A DNA stretch of 64,000 nucleotides. It comes from Fibrobacter sp. (lineage in GTDB: Bacteria; Fibrobacterota; Fibrobacteria; Fibrobacterales; Fibrobacteraceae). Shown here piece after piece: positions 11,477 through 23,099 of this stretch. Numbering within the stretch: position 1 is the stretch's first letter; each line of letters opens with the position of its first letter. The notes under the pieces were generated by a model, which saw only the letters and a program-made list of their open reading frames with translations, had not been told where the DNA came from and did not search any database. Position numbers and translations under genes: made by a program. The stretch is from NCBI GenBank assembly GCA_012511955.1, contig JAAZFC010000036.1, positions 1 to 64,000 on the forward strand, read 5' to 3'.

Positions 11477-11515
11477 GTTGCTATTATTTCACTTTGATTG
11501 GGAGAGTCACTCAAT

Positions 11516-13054
11516 ATGTCTGAATTTTTTAAACAATTATTAACCCAATTACGGGATATTTGGGTTCGCTTTGATGCCATCCAAAAAACTTTGTTGGTCT
11601 CGGTTTTTCTTATAACTTTTGTCGGCTTGATTGTGGTGATTTCCATCCAAGGTTTTGGGAACGCTGGTTCTAATAAAGCGACCTTATTTGCCAATTTAGA
11701 TATGAATACCGCCGCCGAAATAACTGGTTTTCTTCAAGAAAATAAATTTGAGTATTCCCTAGACAACGATGGACGCACCATTTTAGTACCCAAAAGCACC
11801 GTACACGAAGTGCGTATGAATTTAGCCCGAGCGGGTTTACCCCGTGAGCAAGGCAAGGGTTACGAACTTTTCGATAAAAATCAATTGGGCATGACCGACT
11901 TTACCCAAAATCTTAATTATAAACGCGCGGTGGAAGCTGAGCTAATGCGCTCCATAGAAACTTTCCGCGAAGTGGAAAAATCTCGAGTGCATATTAACAT
12001 TCCTAAACAAACTATTTTTATGGAGAAAAAGGAAGAAGCCACTGCCTCAGTGATTGTTAAACTTCGCCCCGGAGAAAGCTTAAAAGAAAGACAAATTAAA
12101 GGCATTCAACATTTAGTTGCTAGCGCCGTAGAAGCTCTAAAAGCACGCCGCGTAACAATTTTAGACGACAGCGGTAATATGCTCACTAAAGGTTTTGCGG
12201 ACAATGCCATAGCTGAACACACTGATCACAACATGGAGCTTAAAAGATCTGTGGAAAACTACATGGAATTCCAAGTTATGGCTATTTTAGATGGCGTTTT
12301 AGGCCCCAACAAAGCTAGAGTAAAGGTAAATGCCGATTTAGATTTCGATCAAATTAATCGCACCGTAGAAACCTACGATCCCACCAAAAAAGTGGTGCGT
12401 TCCGAACAGCGTGACGATGGCACTAAACGCAATAGCCCCATTGTAGGCGACGAAACCAAAGAAGGTTCTATCACTAACTTTGAAATTAATCGTACCATTT
12501 CACAAATTGTGCAAAGTCCAGGCAATACGCGGCGCTTAACCGTTTCCGTTGCGGTGGATGGCAGCTATGAAAAAGACGCCCAAGGTAAATCTATTTACAA
12601 ACCCCGTTCCACCGAAGAATTGCAAGTTATGACACGACTAGTTCGCAATGCTGTTGGTTATTCCGAAGAACGCAATGACGATGTATTTGTAGCTTCGGTG
12701 CAATTTGATCGTTCCCATTTAGCCGACGAAATGCTAGCCCTAAAAGAGCTGGAAAAAAGAGAAATTTATGAAACCTGGGCGCTTAGAGGCGTATTAGTAC
12801 TAATGTTACTGCTTGGATTTATTTTCTTGCGTAAAGTAGCCACAGGGTTAATTGAGGCTATGAACCCTCCAGTACCTTCTTTTGCTAACATTGATTTAGC
12901 TACAGAAGAGCAAGAAGTTCCCGAGCATGTCAAAAGGCAAAATGAACTTTTGCAGCAGTTGGAACAGTATTCCGTTTCTAATCCGACTGCAGTGGCTGAA
13001 CTCTTACGCACATGGATGAACGAAGGACAAGACGGTAAGAAAGGAAATCGATAA
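11516..13054 (+). CDS. fliF: Flagellar MS-ring protein FliF
   Basis: A 512-residue MS-ring subunit. It has an N-terminal membrane segment (about residues 20-42), the ring-building YscJ/FliF domains containing GLPREQGKGYELFDK and VEAELMRSIETFREVEKSRVHI, a C-terminal membrane segment (LRGVLVLMLLLGFIFLRK, ~residues 418-435) and a cytoplasmic tail that would bind FliG. The start at 11516 is chosen because GGAGAG at 11501-11506 precedes it and because the longer reading begins at TTG. fliG follows after 1 bp. Confidence 0.95.
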   Translation: MSEFFKQLLTQLRDIWVRFDAIQKTLLVSVFLITFVGLIVVISIQGFGNAGSNKATLFANLDMNTAAEITGFLQENKFEYSLDNDGRTILVPKSTVHEVRMNLARAGLPREQGKGYELFDKNQLGMTDFTQNLNYKRAVEAELMRSIETFREVEKSRVHINIPKQTIFMEKKEEATASVIVKLRPGESLKERQIKGIQHLVASAVEALKARRVTILDDSGNMLTKGFADNAIAEHTDHNMELKRSVENYMEFQVMAILDGVLGPNKARVKVNADLDFDQINRTVETYDPTKKVVRSEQRDDGTKRNSPIVGDETKEGSITNFEINRTISQIVQSPGNTRRLTVSVAVDGSYEKDAQGKSIYKPRSTEELQVMTRLVRNAVGYSEERNDDVFVASVQFDRSHLADEMLALKELEKREIYETWALRGVLVLMLLLGFIFLRKVATGLIEAMNPPVPSFANIDLATEEQEVPEHVKRQNELLQQLEQYSVSNPTAVAELLRTWMNEGQDGKKGNR

Positions 13055-13055
13055 T

Positions 13056-14114
13056 ATGGCTAAAGGTTTTTATAAAAAAAATATCGGTGACAAATCGTTA
13101 AACAGCTCTTTATTCAATATTCCTGGTCCTAAAAAAGCCGCTATTTTAATGGTGGCCATGGGGTCAGAATCCAGCGCTAATATTTTCAAAAACTTAAATG
13201 AAATTGAAGTAGAAACTTTAACAGCGCAAATCGCCCGTTTAGAGGGAGTAACCCCTGAAATTAAACAACATGTTTTGACAGAATTTCATGAACTGAGTAC
13301 CGCAAAGCAATATGTAACCAGTGGTGGAATTGAATATGCACAAAAAGTACTAGAAGCTTCTATGGGACCGCGAAAAGCGCGGGAAATTTTAGAAAAAGTA
13401 ACTAGCACCATACGCACTACTGGATTTAATATGCTGGACAATGTAGAAACCAACCAGCTCATAGGATTTTTACAAAAAGAACACCCGCAAACGGTGGCTT
13501 TACTTTTAGCGCACATGAAACCCGACAAAGCCGCCACCACGCTTTCGGCTCTAAGTCCTGAAATGCAAGTAGAAGTTGCCACACGCATAGCTACCATGGA
13601 ATCCATATCCCCAGATGTATTAGCCCAAGTTGAACAACAACTTTCGCAAACTATGAAAAGCTTCTTTAGTGGAGATACCGCAGAGGTTGGCGGAGTTAAA
13701 TCTGTCGCCGAAATGCTTAATATGGTGGATCGCAGTGCCGAAAAGAATATTCTGGGAACCTTGGAAAGGGACGACCCCGAGTTGGCCACCGAAATCAAAG
13801 GACTTATGTTTGTGTTCGAAGATATGCTTTTGCTCGACGACAAATCCATGCAAAAAGTGCTCAAAGAGGTGGACAGCAAGGAATTGGCGCTGGCGCTCAA
13901 AGGAGCCAACGAACAAGTACAAGACAAGTTCTTTGCCAATATGTCTTCTCGGGCCGCCGAAATGATCAAAGAAGAGATTACCTTTATGGGGCCCAAACGC
14001 TTGCGCGAAGTAGAAGAAGCCCAACAAAAAATCGTGGATATTGTGCGCCGCTTAGAATCTGACAATGAAATCATCATTTCAGGTCGCGGTGGCGAGGACG
14101 ATATTATCGTATAG
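13056..14114 (+). CDS. fliG: Flagellar motor switch protein FliG
   Basis: A 352-residue rotor protein. N-terminal KKAAILMVAMGSESSANIFKNL binds FliF; the middle holds EHPQTVALLLAHM, the family's EHPQ motif contacting FliM; the C-terminal torque domain includes LERDDPELATEIKGLMFVFEDM, with charged residues that act on the stator, and FMGPKRLREVEEAQ. All three domains are present. A 281-residue reading on the opposite strand is a shadow of this gene. Confidence 0.96.
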   Translation: MAKGFYKKNIGDKSLNSSLFNIPGPKKAAILMVAMGSESSANIFKNLNEIEVETLTAQIARLEGVTPEIKQHVLTEFHELSTAKQYVTSGGIEYAQKVLEASMGPRKAREILEKVTSTIRTTGFNMLDNVETNQLIGFLQKEHPQTVALLLAHMKPDKAATTLSALSPEMQVEVATRIATMESISPDVLAQVEQQLSQTMKSFFSGDTAEVGGVKSVAEMLNMVDRSAEKNILGTLERDDPELATEIKGLMFVFEDMLLLDDKSMQKVLKEVDSKELALALKGANEQVQDKFFANMSSRAAEMIKEEITFMGPKRLREVEEAQQKIVDIVRRLESDNEIIISGRGGEDDIIV

Positions 14115-14121
14115 GTTTCCC

Positions 14122-14922
14122 ATGACTGCAAGCAATTTTTCTGAAAACGCCGAAAAGCTGTTTAGCTCTCTTTCTCAAAAGAACTCCGAGAGCAAACCGC
14201 TTAAGGCGATTATAAAAGGCAATCAGGCATTAAACGAGTTTCAACTCCAGCATTTTAAAACTCCTGGTCGCAAATTTGTAAATCCCCAAGAAAAAATCGA
14301 ACAAGAACTGCAACAACTCAAACATCAGTTACAAATAGCCGAAAACAACTTAAGCGCCGCGGAAAAAGCGTTTGAGCAGCGTTTAGATAAAGAGACTCAA
14401 AAAGCTTATGAGCGTGGTAAAGCAGAAGGTATGGCCGAAGCTTATGAGAAGGCGCAACAAGAGTTCAATGAAAAATTTAATGCTTTTGCTAGTGAAACTA
14501 GCACTTCCTTAGAATCCATTTCTGCAGCTTATGACTCTCGTTGCAAGGAAATAGAGTCCCAAGCGGTGGATTTAAGCATCGGCCTTGCCCAGAGATTATT
14601 TTGCATTTTATCCACTGCCGACCAGCAAATTATAAGTAATGTAATTAGCGAAGGCATGGGTTATTTGGGCCAAGAAGAAGAACTAACCATCATCGTAAAC
14701 CCCCATGACGAAGAATGGGCTCAAGAAAGTCAAAGTTTTTGGCTCCCGCTGAGTTCAGCGGTGAGAAATATAAAAATCAGTGCAGACGACCGAGTGCAAC
14801 GAGGAGGTTGCATTATAGAATCTGCAAAAGGTGCGCAAATTGAACTTGCAATAGACAAAATCTTAGCCAAATTCGAAGATGCTGTACGCAACCATTACCA
14901 ACTTTACCAATCCAATGAATAA
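14122..14922 (+). CDS. fliH: Flagellar assembly protein FliH
   Basis: A 266-residue protein fitting FliH, the stator-like regulator of the FliI ATPase in flagellar type III export. A long Gln/Glu/Ala-rich coiled coil occupies ~residues 55-130 (QEKIEQELQQLKHQLQ onward, with AYERGKAEGMAEAYEKA), followed by a globular C-terminal domain with the VNPHDEEW and RVQRGGCIIES patterns that FliH/YscL/V-ATPase E subunits share. The start at 14122 is used; the longer reading would overlap fliG by 50 bp. It overlaps fliI by 8 bp, suggesting translational coupling. Confidence 0.88.
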   Translation: MTASNFSENAEKLFSSLSQKNSESKPLKAIIKGNQALNEFQLQHFKTPGRKFVNPQEKIEQELQQLKHQLQIAENNLSAAEKAFEQRLDKETQKAYERGKAEGMAEAYEKAQQEFNEKFNAFASETSTSLESISAAYDSRCKEIESQAVDLSIGLAQRLFCILSTADQQIISNVISEGMGYLGQEEELTIIVNPHDEEWAQESQSFWLPLSSAVRNIKISADDRVQRGGCIIESAKGAQIELAIDKILAKFEDAVRNHYQLYQSNE

Positions 14923-16249
14923 TTTAAGTGATTTTATTTTGCCACGCATGGCGGACGAACACTTTGCCGAGCTCAAAGGCCGAGTGGCTAAAATCATTGG
15001 TTTAGTTATGGAATGCGATGGTCCTTCGGCGAGTATTGGAGAATTATGCGCCATATATTCAGGGGCCCAAGTGGTTTCCCAAGCCGAAGTGGTAGGTTTT
15101 CGCGATGGTCGCACTTTGCTTATGTCATTGGGTGAGTTAGAAGGCATTAGACCAGGAATGGAAGTGGTAGCTTTAGGGAACACCTTATCTGCTCCTGTGG
15201 GTCCAGAATTACTTGGAAGAGTCATAGACGGATTGGGGCAACCCATGGACGATCTCGGCAAGCTAGAAGTCAAAGAAAGACGCAGTATCTACGCCGATGC
15301 CCCCAGCGCCATGCAACGCACTAGAATCAGCGAAACTTTTCATACTGGAATACGTGCCATTGACTCTTTTTTGACTATCGGTCAAGGGCAACGCATGGGT
15401 ATTTTCGCAGGTTCTGGCGTGGGAAAAAGCGTAACTATGGGAATGATTGCCCGCAATGGTCTCGCAGAAATCAATGTAATCGCTTTGGTGGGCGAACGAG
15501 GGCGAGAAGTCAGGGAGTTTATTGAAAAAGATTTGGGACCCGAAGGCCTAGCTCGATCGGTGGTAGTGGTAGCTACTTCGGATCAACCTTCATTGGTACG
15601 CCTTAAAGCGAGCTTTTTAGCCACTACCGTCGCAGAATATTTTAGAGATCAAGGCAAACAAGTGCTTTTAATGCTGGATTCCACCACCCGTTTGGCCATG
15701 GCTCAGCGCGAAATTGGTTTAGCCGTGGGCGAACCCCCCACCACCAAAGGCTACACACCCTCGGTTTTCGCCATGATTCCCAAACTTTTAGAAAGAGCTG
15801 GAAATTCGGACAAAGGTTCTATTACAGGGCTTTATACAGTGCTGGTAGAAGGTGATGACATGGATGACCCCATTGCAGACACGGTGCGCTCTGTGCTAGA
15901 TGGGCATATTGTACTTTCCCGAGCTTTAGCTTCGCGCAATCATTATCCAGCCATCGATGTTTTATCTAGCGTTAGTCGCTGTCGCACCGATGTGGCCTCC
16001 GATGAACTTAAATCTTTAACCAATCCATTACTATCTTCCTTAGCAACTTACCAAAAAGCTGAAGATATGATCAGAATTGGCGCATATTCTCATGGTAGTG
16101 ATCCAGAAATAGACCAAGCAATAAAACAACATCCTCCATTGCTAAAGTTTTTGCAACAAAACTTAAATGAAGGTTCTGAAAACATTGACGGGTTAAAAAC
16201 CTTGGAAGAAATTAACAGACTAACGGTTCAAAAACCTACTCAAACCTGA
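14915..16249 (+). CDS. fliI: Flagellum-specific ATPase FliI
   Basis: A 444-residue export ATPase. Walker A GIFAGSGVGKS lies near residue 155 and Walker B VLLMLDSTTRLAMAQREIG near residue 240; ALVGERGREVREFIE and RSVLDGHIVLSRALA are further F1-like family signatures. Start at 14915 overlaps the end of fliH. The gene ends the operon seen here; fliJ, which normally follows, is absent. Its last 14 bp overlap the 3' end of the converging sprA. Confidence 0.96.
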   Translation: MNNLSDFILPRMADEHFAELKGRVAKIIGLVMECDGPSASIGELCAIYSGAQVVSQAEVVGFRDGRTLLMSLGELEGIRPGMEVVALGNTLSAPVGPELLGRVIDGLGQPMDDLGKLEVKERRSIYADAPSAMQRTRISETFHTGIRAIDSFLTIGQGQRMGIFAGSGVGKSVTMGMIARNGLAEINVIALVGERGREVREFIEKDLGPEGLARSVVVVATSDQPSLVRLKASFLATTVAEYFRDQGKQVLLMLDSTTRLAMAQREIGLAVGEPPTTKGYTPSVFAMIPKLLERAGNSDKGSITGLYTVLVEGDDMDDPIADTVRSVLDGHIVLSRALASRNHYPAIDVLSSVSRCRTDVASDELKSLTNPLLSSLATYQKAEDMIRIGAYSHGSDPEIDQAIKQHPPLLKFLQQNLNEGSENIDGLKTLEEINRLTVQKPTQT

Positions 16250-17795
16250 GTAACAAAGCTATTTCAAAACGCAATATTTGCACATTATGCGTGCCACCAT
16301 CGTGCATTTTTTCGCGTATATATTGATACTCAACAAAAGCATTAGCCGTGGCCATTTTGTTGAAGCGATAACCTGCGGAAGGTCGTACATGAAACTCATA
16401 GCGACGGGTGGGAGTTTGGGAAACGGGTTCATCGAACATGGGATAATAAACCGCATAGCATTCTGGACCAATTTCTGTGCATCCATCTGGAATGTATTTA
16501 TCCACATCCCCCGCCACTTCATTTAATATTAACGGTTCATAGCCAGGAATTATAGGCCGTTCACGGTAGCTTTCGCGTTCAAAAGTCATGCCTGTAGCAA
16601 GTTTCAAATTAATATCATTTTTAAGGCGGAAATACCACTTAAAAAGCTGGAACCCACGAGCGGTTTTAAGGTCGTAGCCCACAGTTAGCTCATCGCCTAT
16701 GCGGAAATTATGGGTTTCGTTGCTGTCGGTGTGCATCCACGGCACTTTCAAAAAAGATGCCAGGGTATCCGTGCTTTCTGTAGGCCAACCCGGAGTGGGC
16801 ACCACTTGCATTTTAGGGCGGCGCAAGGAATGCTCTAAAGTTAGAGTAATATCGTTGTCTATGCGGATATTTTTGGGGGTTAAAGCCGAAATTCGCAATA
16901 ATGGATTGAAATTCCAAGTTTTACGCCACTCATCTTCAGAACTTTGGGCGGTGCGCACACTGCGTACAAAAGTATAGTCTGTGCGGTGATTGGCACTCAA
17001 GCTGCGCAATTTAGATTTAAGAATGTCTAAGCGATGGGCAAAATTGGGAATATTTACCCCAATTCCCACCTTGGGCCAAGTGGTGGTAGTGTCTAAATAC
17101 AACGGCGTTTCTCGGTGCTGGGTAAATTCCTGACTCCACAAAATATCCGTGGAAAGGCCAATATCCCAGATGGGCAAAGTAAGATTAGTCCCCCCCGTGG
17201 CACGACGATTAACCCCATGATTAAAGTTTTTACGATAAACCAATGTATCTACGGTTTTACTGCGATATTGCCCAAATTTCTCAAAATCCTCTCTTTCAGT
17301 GAGCCCCATATCACCCGAAACCACATTCCACAAGCTGCGATGCCTAAAACCATCTCCTAGCCCCAAACTGTAAAGCCAATATTGACCCGGCATTACTCCC
17401 TGCTGGTTATATAAGTGGGAAAGAGTAAAATCTTCGCCCCTAGTGCCCAAATCCACCGCCCAAGTGGCTCGGAGCTCGCGCCAACGCAACTTGTCTAGAG
17501 CCTTAGTAATAGCATTTTTACCACCAATACCAAATAAATCTACCAATCTCAATGTGGGGTTAAATTCAAACCTATTGCTTTGCTGTATGCTCCAAAAGTT
17601 TTTGTTGTGCATATCAGAGTTGAAAAAATCAAAATCATCGGGGATGGATTTTACTTGGTTAAATGACCCACCATAAGAAATGCTCATAGGCAAAAAGGGA
17701 ATCATCATAGGGGTAAAATTCAATCTAAAATCTTGATTACGATCTTTTTCGTTGCGCAATATGCCATAATCTTTGCCATAAGCTCTATCCCCCAC
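16236..17795 (-). CDS. sprA: SprA C-terminal part, separated from the rest by an in-frame TGA
   Basis: A 519-codon stretch in the same frame as the gene upstream. The reading is continuous through YRIDKVGDRAYGKDYGILR once the TGA at 17811-17813 is read through. The sequence is a run of amphipathic aromatic-rich strands ending in ILRFEIALLLRFE, the pattern of the closing strands of the giant SprA barrel. The GTG at 17795 has no credible ribosome binding site, so an independent protein is unlikely. The gene is therefore best treated as the 3' quarter of sprA (about 2,270 codons in all, close to known SprA proteins). Confidence 0.75.
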   Translation of the reverse strand: MGDRAYGKDYGILRNEKDRNQDFRLNFTPMMIPFLPMSISYGGSFNQVKSIPDDFDFFNSDMHNKNFWSIQQSNRFEFNPTLRLVDLFGIGGKNAITKALDKLRWRELRATWAVDLGTRGEDFTLSHLYNQQGVMPGQYWLYSLGLGDGFRHRSLWNVVSGDMGLTEREDFEKFGQYRSKTVDTLVYRKNFNHGVNRRATGGTNLTLPIWDIGLSTDILWSQEFTQHRETPLYLDTTTTWPKVGIGVNIPNFAHRLDILKSKLRSLSANHRTDYTFVRSVRTAQSSEDEWRKTWNFNPLLRISALTPKNIRIDNDITLTLEHSLRRPKMQVVPTPGWPTESTDTLASFLKVPWMHTDSNETHNFRIGDELTVGYDLKTARGFQLFKWYFRLKNDINLKLATGMTFERESYRERPIIPGYEPLILNEVAGDVDKYIPDGCTEIGPECYAVYYPMFDEPVSQTPTRRYEFHVRPSAGYRFNKMATANAFVEYQYIREKMHDGGTHNVQILRFEIALLLRFE

Positions 17796-17810
17796 TTTAT
17801 CGATACGATA

Positions 17811-17813
17811 TCA
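17811..17813 (-). other. sprA: In-frame TGA interrupting sprA
   Basis: On the minus strand the codons read TAT TGA TAT CGT ATC GAT with no change of frame on either side. It sits about three quarters of the way along the gene. TGA is used as a normal terminator elsewhere in the window (fliI, flgC, trmH), so reassignment is unlikely. It is a nonsense mutation, a sequencing or assembly error, or a rare readthrough site; TGG (Trp), CGA (Arg) or GGA (Gly) would each be one change away. Confidence 0.85.
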
Positions 17814-20800
17814 ATAAGTGGTATCATAAAAAGCGTGGTAAGTAGAAGTATCTCCAGGAATCATGGGAATGGTATCGCCACTGGGAGTAAGCTTGGGACG
17901 GCGTAGAGAATAATTTTCCACCACAGCCAAAACTGAATCAAAATCGTAAGAGCCATAAACATCACGGTCGGTATGGTCATGGTCAAAAATCACCCCATTG
18001 GCAAAAAGCGATCCTTTTTTGGTGCTAAAGAAGTTCTCTTTGGTAAATCTTTCTCTGTCACCACCAGCTTCCATGTCGCGATTTATGCCTAAACTATATG
18101 ATGCTGTAAGAAATGGAAATATATTCCAACGCATATTTACCTTATGCCGCAAGCTCACATCGTAATCTAAAATTCTAGGAACCTGAGGTTCTACAAAATC
18201 CGCATCTAGTTCTTGGTTAATGTTTTTAGAATAAGTTAAGTCCATCAATGTGAAATCAAAAGTTTGTGGCCAAGGTTCAAAAGAAGCGTTCCCCAATTGG
18301 TTGGGCATCCATTTTTTATCTTTAAGCGCATTAAATATTTTAAAATTAAAAGGCTCAAAAGTTCCTAATTTATAATCCAAGGTGGTATTGTAAGTATATG
18401 AGGAGTCTGCCCTAAGAGCGGAGCGTGTTTCAGTTTCTGCGTATCTATAATTAAAAGCAGGACGCTCAAGTAAAGTTTGCGTCAGCACTTCACTCACAAT
18501 ATTATCTGACTTTTTATACTCTTTCGAAAAGCCCACACTCAAGTTTTTACTATTTACCACACTTTGATAACCCCGCGCTTCGGGCACAGCACCAGACCTT
18601 TGCTGGGCCAAGCTTTGGGCATCGTAAGTATTGATAGAGCCGTCAAAAATATCGGGCAAAATATCTTTAATTCCATCCCGACTAAGCATCTGATCGCTGG
18701 AAGGTTTAAGGTAAGGACGACGAATATTTGAAGAAACACCAATGCTCAAAGGAATACGCAGCCCCCAATCATCTTTAAAAAACTTGTTGAGCATTAAGGA
18801 ATAATTTCCATTGAGTACCAATTGCGTGTTAGATTCAGCCAAAGTAGGTTTAGGGGATTTTTCTTCGCTTTTTAGAGTGGCAAAATCTCCATCTTGGTAA
18901 TACATTTCCCCTGAAATAGACATAACATCGGCAAAATTTAACTGCCCGCGCACTCTACCAGCTATGCCCCAATCATTGCTAATTCCAGATAAACGCAGGT
19001 CATTAAGCCAAAATGTTCCCTCAATATCGTTTAAAGCGGTGTTTTCATCGGCAATAATCACAAAACGCACCCAATTTACTCTACTTATGGTGGGATTTCC
19101 TACAATGCGCACCCATTCATCACGCTCCACAGCCTTAGCACCACTAGGGCGACGGGGAGCACTGGGATTTAAAGGCGAGTGATCAGCTTTGAGTCCCACA
19201 AAATCCGCCAAGGGCAAATCAAAAGCATTGTCTAGCCAGTTGCGTTCATGGCAATCCTGTTCCCTTTCTTGGGCTTCGCATCGTAAAGTGATAGGTTTAA
19301 AAGACCATTCATAATAATGGCTAGAACTTTCCAAGCCTCCTTGCCCAAACTGCAAAGCAAAACGGATAGGAGAGTCATCCATGGCACTCATATAATGAAT
19401 TTCCATCAATATTTGCTTATACATAGTAAGATCAATATCTTCCCCTTCAAAGATCTTGGTGGCCCAGACCTCTTGCCCTGGATTTAAACCGCCAAAGTCC
19501 AAAACCAGACTTTGTTCTTTAAGGGTTGCACTGGTTTCAGAGTCGCGCTCAGAAACGGTATTTGGCGATTTAAAATATGTGCGAGAATCGTCGCGGTTAT
19601 TGATCACTCGCACATGCAAATAATTGCTGTCGGCTTTGATCACTTGTCCCGGGGCATCGGTTTCTACATAAGAGCCATCGACTTCAATTATTTGCCCAGG
19701 GCCGCTGGTGATAATCCCATATTGGTTGGAAATATCGTTTTCTTGCCACTGATTTCCCACAATTTTGAAATCCACAATTTGCGCTTGGCCTTCGGAAACA
19801 CCGGATTTCAAGCTACCATACCACAAACGGGTAAAACCCGCATCTGACAAAATTTCCTTCCACGAGCCCCCTGTACTCGAAACTATGGTATCAAAAGCAT
19901 CCAAGGGAATACGCCAGCGCCGCCAACCATTTTTCAGTTCGTCATAAGTGGTACGATCATCATCTTCTAAATTTATGCGATAGCGCACAAAGCGAATGTC
20001 TGTGTCCAAAGTCCAGTTGCCATTCAAATCTTCCGTATCAAAAGGCCTTTCATCGGGACCGTTATTCCCCTCGGTACCGTTAATATGAATAGTGGGATCA
20101 GTGGCATCTTTTTGCTCTATAAAATTATCTCTAGCCGCATCGGTATTGGCTCCGGAAGAAAATACTTCAGTGGAAACGCAACCGGGAACCCGACAATCCC
20201 AATCTAAACGACTCTCTGTTTGTGTGGAACCATCTACCCCATCCAACCCAAAGTCATTTATAGCGGTGGAAGTCCCATCCCGCGCTTCGGAATCCAAAAC
20301 GCCATTGGGTTTGTAACCATTTATAGAAACATCTTCGCTTAGCGCACCTAAATCCACAAAAATACTGCCCACATTACCCCGCGCCACCACCTCAATATAA
20401 CGCATATTCATGCCACTTAAATCGCTCCAATATTCGCTATTGGCCCGCATTACTCCTCCCCAGGATTTGCCTTCTAGGTTATCATTGGGGCGTAAAGTAA
20501 ACTTCAAAACTGGCATTTCTCTGGTATCTATATCAGTATTATTAACTTCAGTATAAACATTGCGGTAGCGTTCATATTGGTTGCTATGCCATATAAACTC
20601 TCCCAAATAACGGTGATCTAACTCGGGAATATAGGTGGATAAATCATCGTCGGTACCTCCGGGCGGCGAAGCGTGGGTCCACGATGTGCGATATAATGGA
20701 TAGGATAATGAGCGTGAGCTAGATTCAAAGTCTTCTAACAAAGCTGCTTTGCGATCAGAACTGTTGGCATTGTGGTAACTTGCAGCTAATTCTGCTTCCA

Positions 20801-23060
20801 TTTCCCAAGATGATTTAGCATCTGTATTTATAAAAGGCAAAGCATTAATAAACTTGTCCATCCATTGGGCGGTGTCTTGCAAGCGTAAATTAGCTCCTAA
20901 AAGTACGCTAGAAAATGGTTCTCCTCCATAACGAGGCTGTTGTTGGCTGGTACTTTGATTTTTGTACAAAGCAGTAATCCCTAAAAGCGAGTTATCTCCC
21001 AAAGAGCGGAAAGGATACTCTGCTCGGGCTCCCAACAAGATTTTATTGTCGATTTCGAATAAAGGTTCACACTCATAGGTAACGCTAATTTCATTGTTAG
21101 GGTTTAAAGCTTTTTCGCTTAAAAGTTCTATACTACCCAATTCGTAGTTCACCGAATAATCCACATCTTTTTTGAGTACATCAGAACCAATCTTAAGTTT
21201 TTCTGAATCTGGAGCAATATCTATGCAATTTCCTGAACTCACTGAAAAAGATGAACCTGGATCCCTTACATTAATGGTGGTTTGCCGTTTTTTACCAATG
21301 GTTTCAAAAAAGTATCTACTGGCAAATTGATTGAGATTATGCACAGGATTTTCATAAATTTGTGCCATTACCGCAGAGCTATCCACATTGCGCAAAGGTT
21401 CTAAACAGTTTTGGCGGGCGCGCTTGGAGGCTTCTACCGGGCTCATATTTTGATTTCTATACCACGATTCTGGCAAGCAAGGCAACCACATTTCTCCCGT
21501 ATATTTACCATTTATTTTAGGAAAAATGTCGGGATCATTAGAACGCACCGCCCCACTGGTGCTATCTACCAAACCCAACATCGTAAGAGCATTGGAAACT
21601 GACTTCAAATTTTGATCTTTAAAACGCAACACAAAACCCGTAGCATTGTTTTCATTAATGCCCACCTGATACACATTGCGCAACATTAGCTTTCCAATTC
21701 CCGGCAAATTACTGCCATTATTGTCATCTTGCACTAAAATCACATTTTGTCCTGAACGCACCACCGCGCTGGTGCGACCGCTTAAATCTCCCACCCAACT
21801 CGCTGCAATTAGCACACCTTTTCCCCCGGTGAGAATTTTTACCGTTCCCGAACGGCTATCCCAATCCCATTCTACCCCTTTGCGCATTTCTACCAAGCGC
21901 AAATCTCTTTTATTGCGATACTCTTTGCCATCACTATCGTAGTAAATAGCCGTCATATCTTTAAGCACATCTTTTTCGTTATTGATGGGATTGCGTTTAA
22001 AAAGCTTAAGCTCCGTGGGGGGCGATAAATTACCAAAAGCCCCCCTAGCAACGGCTTGACTCACCGCCTGATCACGCCAGCGATGGTCCAAAAAGTAATA
22101 CCTATAACCCACAAAATTTTTATCTAAAATACGCATTTCGCTTTCTTGATCTGAAGCGCGCAAAGTATAGCTCTCAGCGCTGCCAGCATCTTGAGACGCA
22201 ATAGCGGTAACATCCCAATCCCCAAATTTAAGGTCCGCTTTCACCCCAAAAAGTCCTTGGTGATTCTCTGAATACCCCGTAAGTTCTGTTCCCCGTAAGG
22301 AAAGTGAGGTAGATCCCAGCTCCAAGCGTTGCAAAACAAAATCTTCAAACTCTCCTGGGGTGGCTTCGGCATAAATCACCCTTAATTGGTTGCGCACTCC
22401 CAAACCGCTTTCACTATTGTTGACTTCCACCGTAATATGGCGTCCTATTTTTCCTTTAACCAAAAAGCTAGGTTCATAATGCAATGATGGAGAAGGAAAC
22501 AGTGATTTTTGCAAACTTCCCGGAGCATCGTCATAAACTCCTTTACCCAACAAGCGAATATCCATTTGTCCTTGCAATTGGAGTTTGGGCTTATCTAAAC
22601 CTAAATCCTTCATCCATGCGGGCATATTTATGGGAATAGCAATATCAAATAAAGAGCCTTCTGCCCCATCTTGACCACCATCTTTTTGCCCTATCAAAGA
22701 GTTTAACCATAAATTTTGTAAACCCACATCGTACATATCAAAGGTATAGGAGGTTAATTCTTGATAATAAGCAGTCCACAAATTTTCAGTATCTTGGGAT
22801 AAAGCATTTACATAGTTAGATTTAATACGCACTTCTCGCGAGGCGAAATCTACTTCATGCTCATTCACAATGTTCCGTTTGGGGAAGTTTAAATACCCCC
22901 AAGAAGGGTGCTGTTCTATACCGCCTTTGGGAAGCATACCCTTTAAAGGTTCGCTCACTGGAGGCTTAGTTAAATAATCTAAAGAGGGTATAAGTGTAGA
23001 ATCGGATGCGTTAACCAAACACACCACCAGCGAAAGCAAAACCAGCAACTTTCGGCTCAA
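17811..23060 (-). CDS. sprA: SprA-type giant outer-membrane protein (T9SS translocon), N-terminal three quarters
   Basis: 1,749 codons before the internal TGA. In Bacteroidota SprA is the very large outer-membrane barrel that forms the type IX secretion pore and is needed for gliding. Here a signal peptide (SRKLLVLLSLVVCLVNA) is followed by repeated beta-rich SprA-like segments (for example VKGKIGRHITVEVNNSESG, YRYYFLDHRWRD, SGISNDWGIAGRVRGQL, GDWGLRIPLSIGVSS-like strands). I prefer the TTG start at 23060: GAGGAG lies 6 nt before it and a good promoter gives it a 32-nt leader. An ATG at 23084 is the alternative. With the segment 16236-17795 it makes a full-length gene. It is divergent from rsmA. 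Confidence 0.8.
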   Translation of the reverse strand: MSRKLLVLLSLVVCLVNASDSTLIPSLDYLTKPPVSEPLKGMLPKGGIEQHPSWGYLNFPKRNIVNEHEVDFASREVRIKSNYVNALSQDTENLWTAYYQELTSYTFDMYDVGLQNLWLNSLIGQKDGGQDGAEGSLFDIAIPINMPAWMKDLGLDKPKLQLQGQMDIRLLGKGVYDDAPGSLQKSLFPSPSLHYEPSFLVKGKIGRHITVEVNNSESGLGVRNQLRVIYAEATPGEFEDFVLQRLELGSTSLSLRGTELTGYSENHQGLFGVKADLKFGDWDVTAIASQDAGSAESYTLRASDQESEMRILDKNFVGYRYYFLDHRWRDQAVSQAVARGAFGNLSPPTELKLFKRNPINNEKDVLKDMTAIYYDSDGKEYRNKRDLRLVEMRKGVEWDWDSRSGTVKILTGGKGVLIAASWVGDLSGRTSAVVRSGQNVILVQDDNNGSNLPGIGKLMLRNVYQVGINENNATGFVLRFKDQNLKSVSNALTMLGLVDSTSGAVRSNDPDIFPKINGKYTGEMWLPCLPESWYRNQNMSPVEASKRARQNCLEPLRNVDSSAVMAQIYENPVHNLNQFASRYFFETIGKKRQTTINVRDPGSSFSVSSGNCIDIAPDSEKLKIGSDVLKKDVDYSVNYELGSIELLSEKALNPNNEISVTYECEPLFEIDNKILLGARAEYPFRSLGDNSLLGITALYKNQSTSQQQPRYGGEPFSSVLLGANLRLQDTAQWMDKFINALPFINTDAKSSWEMEAELAASYHNANSSDRKAALLEDFESSSRSLSYPLYRTSWTHASPPGGTDDDLSTYIPELDHRYLGEFIWHSNQYERYRNVYTEVNNTDIDTREMPVLKFTLRPNDNLEGKSWGGVMRANSEYWSDLSGMNMRYIEVVARGNVGSIFVDLGALSEDVSINGYKPNGVLDSEARDGTSTAINDFGLDGVDGSTQTESRLDWDCRVPGCVSTEVFSSGANTDAARDNFIEQKDATDPTIHINGTEGNNGPDERPFDTEDLNGNWTLDTDIRFVRYRINLEDDDRTTYDELKNGWRRWRIPLDAFDTIVSSTGGSWKEILSDAGFTRLWYGSLKSGVSEGQAQIVDFKIVGNQWQENDISNQYGIITSGPGQIIEVDGSYVETDAPGQVIKADSNYLHVRVINNRDDSRTYFKSPNTVSERDSETSATLKEQSLVLDFGGLNPGQEVWATKIFEGEDIDLTMYKQILMEIHYMSAMDDSPIRFALQFGQGGLESSSHYYEWSFKPITLRCEAQEREQDCHERNWLDNAFDLPLADFVGLKADHSPLNPSAPRRPSGAKAVERDEWVRIVGNPTISRVNWVRFVIIADENTALNDIEGTFWLNDLRLSGISNDWGIAGRVRGQLNFADVMSISGEMYYQDGDFATLKSEEKSPKPTLAESNTQLVLNGNYSLMLNKFFKDDWGLRIPLSIGVSSNIRRPYLKPSSDQMLSRDGIKDILPDIFDGSINTYDAQSLAQQRSGAVPEARGYQSVVNSKNLSVGFSKEYKKSDNIVSEVLTQTLLERPAFNYRYAETETRSALRADSSYTYNTTLDYKLGTFEPFNFKIFNALKDKKWMPNQLGNASFEPWPQTFDFTLMDLTYSKNINQELDADFVEPQVPRILDYDVSLRHKVNMRWNIFPFLTASYSLGINRDMEAGGDRERFTKENFFSTKKGSLFANGVIFDHDHTDRDVYGSYDFDSVLAVVENYSLRRPKLTPSGDTIPMIPGDTSTYHAFYDTTY

Positions 23061-23099
23061 AAATTCTCCTCTTATACTTTTCATCTAAGGGCTTGCCCT

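Follow-up and report, generated by a model that had tools for sequence, protein, structure and literature searches.

Reading Frame of sprA

An unusually long gene in a draft genome of an uncultured Fibrobacter sp. (Fibrobacteraceae) is interrupted by one in-frame TGA, and the question raised by this locus is whether the stop codon belongs to the organism or to the draft consensus. The draft genome (denoted G000) contains 2,684,251 bases in 150 contigs and is 96.85% complete. The stretch of DNA analyzed here, referred to as the window, is 64,000 nucleotides in length. On the minus strand of the window, the 5′ part of sprA extends over 17811..23084 from an ATG to a TGA and encodes 1757 amino acids, with the stop codon inside these coordinates. 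This TGA occupies 17811-17813 on the minus strand and is codon 1758 of sprA. The same frame continues through the 3′ part of the gene (16236..17810, minus strand), which consists of 524 sense codons and the stop codon at 16236-16238. For the base composition of the window, the chance of an open run of 524 codons is about 1e-14.

The product obtained by reading through the TGA contains 2282 residues (1757 + stop + 524 codons), and no stop other than the TGA at codon 1758 was found in the 2282 codons of this one continuous frame. A preliminary description of this DNA had proposed that a single TGA splits sprA and that 525 codons follow in the same frame; the split, the interrupted frame, and the absence of any other stop were all reproduced, and the 3′ count was corrected to 524 sense codons. 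An established pseudogene was rejected, since several accumulated lesions would be expected and one stop in 2282 codons was found.

Identity of the Protein

With the TGA entered as X, the read-through product scored 882 bits against TIGR04189, the model for the T9SS outer membrane translocon Sov/SprA, for which the cut-off is 200. The match covers product residues 454-2281 and runs across the stop, and its best stretch corresponds to model positions 441-2318 of 2319, which is most of the length of this equivalog model. Pfam SprA_N was also matched by the read-through product. As judged from these profile matches, the gene encodes SprA/Sov, which forms the barrel of the type IX secretion system (T9SS) in the outer membrane. 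The name sprA given in the preliminary description is thus retained, as is its statement that the frame carries on beyond the TGA into a conserved C-terminal barrel.

The window gene resembles the structurally characterized SprA/Sov proteins (PDB 6h3i, 6h3j, 8gl6, and 8gl8) in the TIGR04189 match across the stop and differs from them, in this assembly, by the one TGA at codon 1758. Stretches between product residues 204 and 1465 were aligned by sequence with SprA 6h3j and 6h3i. A profile search of the PDB with A1 as the query found no SprA. In the passages of a review that bear on this protein (PMC9127263), SprA is described as a 36-strand barrel formed from a single polypeptide and as needed for the secretion of SprB, RemA, chitinase, and gingipains. 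As assembled, the TGA at codon 1758 leaves the gene without one uninterrupted barrel polypeptide. The TGA is judged to be an assembly error, and the broken polypeptide is therefore counted against the assembly record and not against the organism.

Predicted Structure around the Stop Codon

A structure was predicted for product residues 1400-2282. The mean pLDDT of 63.7 and the pTM of 0.56 identify it as a modest model. The best four matches obtained with this model using Foldseek are all SprA structures (8gl6, 8gl8, 6h3j, and 6h3i). Comparison of the model with residues 1561-2401 of 6h3i gave a Z of 16.8 and an rmsd of 9.0 for 529 aligned residues, with porins and TonB-dependent receptors scoring alike. 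For the C-terminal half of the protein, the model is consistent with the barrel fold of SprA. Codon 1758 is placed in a predicted low-confidence loop (model residues 349-375). Counted from the strand list, about 15 long β strands follow codon 1758 and eight precede it within the modelled part. Given the loss of about 15 strands from a barrel made of a single polypeptide, the truncated protein would be null if the stop were real.

Orthologues of SprA and the Residue at Codon 1758

The sprA gene is single-copy in the draft genome, where it is the sole sprA match, and sprA is present in all 30 relatives that were searched. No internal stop appears in any sprA row of these 30 genomes; several of the rows are contig-end fragments. 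The nearest sprA is 59% identical, so the change cannot be dated by means of a close relative, and the relatives included no second genome of this genus. In a second sprA search, every named match came from a record of Fibrobacter or Fibrobacteres labelled MAG.

The residue at codon 1758 was obtained from 47 sprA-bearing loci, 41 of which span the site, yielding 37 distinct sequences. The column contains Phe in 23 of these and Tyr in four, followed by Ile (two), Ser, Ala, Val, and Arg (one each), and a gap in four. The lone Arg comes from a remote, poorly aligned sequence, and Trp, Gly, and Cys are absent from the 37 orthologue stretches. Residues ahead of codon 1758 vary. Directly after it, Tyr predominates, and a conserved stretch with YG at its end comes next. 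The preliminary description had derived the TGA from a codon for Trp (TGG), Arg (CGA), or Gly (GGA) and had named an orthologue alignment as the means of deciding among them; the alignment lends these codons little support. Two bases of TGA would have to change to give a codon for Phe or Tyr. If one base is wrong, the lineage therefore probably had a residue at this position that is unlike that of most relatives.

In-Frame Stops in the Draft Genome and Its Relatives

The frequency of similar lesions was determined with a scan for stops that are flanked by coding sequence in one and the same frame and are not followed by an ATG within the first codons. This six-frame version took over from a first coding-score scan, in which relatives of higher GC content yielded numerous shadow-ORF candidates. 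The sample from G000 comprises 771,257 bases, including the window, or 29% of the genome. The control sample comprises 949,884 bases from three relatives (400,000 from G016, 256,146 from G010, and 293,738 from G002). The scan returned 17 candidates in G000 and 14 in the three relatives. Protein family scans were conducted on 16 of the 17 G000 candidates (all but L117) and on all 14 controls.

Nine stops in G000 lie inside one family match, versus one in the three relatives. The nine consist of seven TAA codons, one TAG, and one TGA, the last being that of sprA. The TAA in gyrB is found at L124:10588 (contig C33, plus strand). The other single-stop conserved genes, identified by the stop scan and family matches, are located at L126:10642, L126:7368, L066:8112, L219:16129, and L054:6730 on the minus strand and at L230:8449 and L112:8556 on the plus strand. 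In addition to gyrB, the families interrupted by TAA are a class II fructose-bisphosphate aldolase, a PEP mutase/cytidylyltransferase, an acyl-CoA carboxyltransferase, a transglycosylase, a transpeptidase, and a FISUMP/CotH protein. The TAG interrupts a bPH_3 protein. The sole control stop that spans a domain is a TAG in a DUF4423 gene of G002 (L243:3261, minus strand).

The sensitivity of the scan was measured with simulated stops, which were recovered in 112 of 150 cases for G000, 74 of 150 for G016, 54 of 115 for G010, and 97 of 127 for G002. After correction for sensitivity, the excess of stops in G000 gives a one-sided binomial p of 0.014, or 0.018 without the window, for small numbers and for genomes that differ in GC content. 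Extended to a whole genome, the rate in G000 would amount to about 40 conserved genes with an interruption, and for this reason the loss of SprA or of the T9SS is not to be inferred from the record.

The remaining G000 candidates were dropped. L120 is a ribosomal L13/S9 border and L112:6778 is a GlgE/PrmA border. In L069 and L234, the first gene has its last domain ahead of the stop, and L050 and L126:19654 have no family. L227 contains TPR repeats, for which spanning of the stop is unproven, and L117, left out of the Pfam scan, has a new ATG at codon 11. L060, a candidate from an earlier six-frame scan, is an MlaE/ABC border. A homology scan with the ORFs of the relatives covered about 74 kb and was noisy with antisense shadow ORFs; the sprA stop was the one stop noted from it.

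A search for the ABC_tran domain was conducted across 11 whole genomes. The sole internal stop among the matches listed is a TAA in G000, at contig C81:38613-39080, outside the sampled bases. This corresponds to one of 13 among the matches listed for G000 and to none among the matches listed for the other ten genomes.

Interrupted gyrB, Aldolase, and Other Genes

Some of the genes in this assembly that carry the same type of lesion as sprA are indispensable, including gyrB and the aldolase. There is one true copy of gyrB in G000; a second match is a paralogue of 35% identity. Two Pfam domains (397 and 428) flank the TAA, which falls inside one TIGR01059 match that extends from 14 to 645. The residue at this position is Lys in all 21 spanning relatives and in all three spanning paralogues. 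Bacterial growth is impossible without gyrase. Since gyrase is indispensable, the stop in gyrB at least must be either an error or read through. Near the TAA, a second residue that is otherwise invariant (Gly 411) also differs in G000.

The class II aldolase gave one match in G000. In 14 close relatives the residue at the TAA is Lys in ten, Arg in three, and Glu in one, with six remote matches left out. Tyr is aligned to the TAA in the nearest solved structures for both the carboxyltransferase and the transglycosylase, and Pro is aligned to the TAA of the PEP mutase gene. No residue could be assigned with confidence for the transpeptidase TAA. Random base changes fit the variety of residues displaced by three types of stop codon; a single decoding rule does not.

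Stops were also reported in some rows of the relatives. For gyrB, the row of G004 has a stop at query residue 5, and stops are also reported for the paralogue in G001, G002, G008, and G011. For the aldolase, stops were reported in the rows of G002 and G007; the tblastn alignment of G007 has one at residue 12, and that of G002 has none.

Frameshifts and Missense Changes

No excess of frameshifts was detected in G000, where a looser scan gave 37 candidates per 771 kb versus 35 per 950 kb in the relatives, most of which are ordinary gene borders by our reading. A strict scan gave none in G000 and one in the relatives. At columns that are otherwise invariant, G000 deviates 14 times in gyrB (the highest of 13 sequences, the next being 9), four times in the aldolase (third of 11), and 30 times in sprA (second of 15). 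These deviations are mostly conservative. They are not clearly raised in G000, and thus missense errors are not plainly visible.

Origin of the TGA Codon

The TGA in sprA most probably reflects an incorrect base in the draft consensus rather than anything that happened in the organism. The draft would carry scattered single-base errors, some of which make sense codons into stops, and the living cell would read a sense codon at codon 1758 and synthesize full-length SprA. A consensus error is the likeliest reading because single stops of a similar kind interrupt indispensable genes elsewhere in this assembly, and we infer that the TGA in sprA shares its cause with the other stops of this draft. 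The preliminary description had offered a consensus error as the outcome that would overturn a real stop, and the stops of gyrB, the aldolase, and ABC_tran in the same draft now make it the favored answer. The lesions resemble known base-level consensus errors in MAGs and draft genomes in being single, substitution-type stops in conserved and otherwise open genes, and differ from them in the lack of a frameshift excess.

An unlikely alternative, the best placed of those considered, is a real and very recent nonsense mutation, through which the sampled strain or part of its population would have lost T9SS secretion along with full-length SprA. A recent change predicts what is seen in the frame, namely a TGA with an otherwise clean reading frame, and the affected codon lies in a tolerant column and in the low-confidence loop; the predicted removal of some 15 long barrel strands would make the mutation null. 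The same assembly, however, contains stops in gyrB and in its only aldolase match that cannot be real nulls, and the sprA rows of the 30 relatives contain no stop. Retained T9SS cargo is a further point against this alternative. The T9SS sorting domain TIGR04183 (CTD) has 34 matches in G000, 28 of which are over the cut-off. The cargo tails kept in the genome speak against an old loss of SprA and say nothing on a recent one.

Efficient readthrough or recoding at the TGA, by opal suppression, context-dependent readthrough, or selenocysteine, is very improbable. Selenoproteins and the opal recoding of genetic codes 4 and 25 are known cases in which TGA is read as an amino acid. The sprA gene resembles these systems in that a TGA interrupts a frame that is otherwise open; the frame stays clean past the TGA, and in-frame stops also occur in other essential genes that must be translated. 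It differs from them in several respects. Among 228 sampled ORFs of at least 150 amino acids in G000, TAA is the terminator of 136, TGA of 52, and TAG of 40. The gene for RF2 (prfB) is intact, with a score of 473 bits relative to a cut-off of 370. No suppressor tRNA with the anticodon TCA was found among the 33 tRNAs identified from 150 scored of 205 first-look candidates. Genome-wide opal reassignment was rejected on these three observations. No tRNA-Sec (RF01852) was found over the cut-off; the best candidate, at 46.5 versus 47 bits, is a tRNA-Ser(CGA) according to ARAGORN. This result and the lack of Cys in the column of orthologues led to the rejection of a selenoprotein. The other stops, moreover, are TAA and TAG at Lys and other positions, which no single decoding fits.

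A SprA in two pieces, with the 3′ part translated on its own and assembled with the N-terminal piece within the membrane, is extremely improbable. A GTG occurs five codons 3′ of the TGA, and a mechanical ORF inside the 3′ part (16236..17795, minus strand, 519 amino acids) has a GTG start. The first ATG, however, is 34 codons past the TGA, no Shine-Dalgarno-like run was seen on inspection by eye, no relative has a stop here, and a piece begun at this point would have no N-terminal signal sequence, which export requires. There is equally little to be expected of a scheme in which the scattered stops are real and all three codons are read through in a context-dependent manner, so that sprA, gyrB, and dozens more are made at full length.

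A consensus error thus remains the preferred explanation, and no reason was found to claim novelty for the sprA stop. If the stop were real, loss of the T9SS, the consequence drawn in the preliminary description, would follow, and it would have occurred in a lineage that still keeps T9SS cargo. A lone in-frame stop in the draft genome of an uncultured organism calls for comparison with how often indispensable genes are interrupted in that assembly before any function is declared lost.

Genes Adjoining sprA

The flagellar genes fliF, fliG, fliH, and fliI adjoin sprA at 11498-16249 of the window on the plus strand and run toward it. The ORFs of fliG and fliH overlap by about 50 bases, and those of fliH and fliI overlap by about 44 bases.
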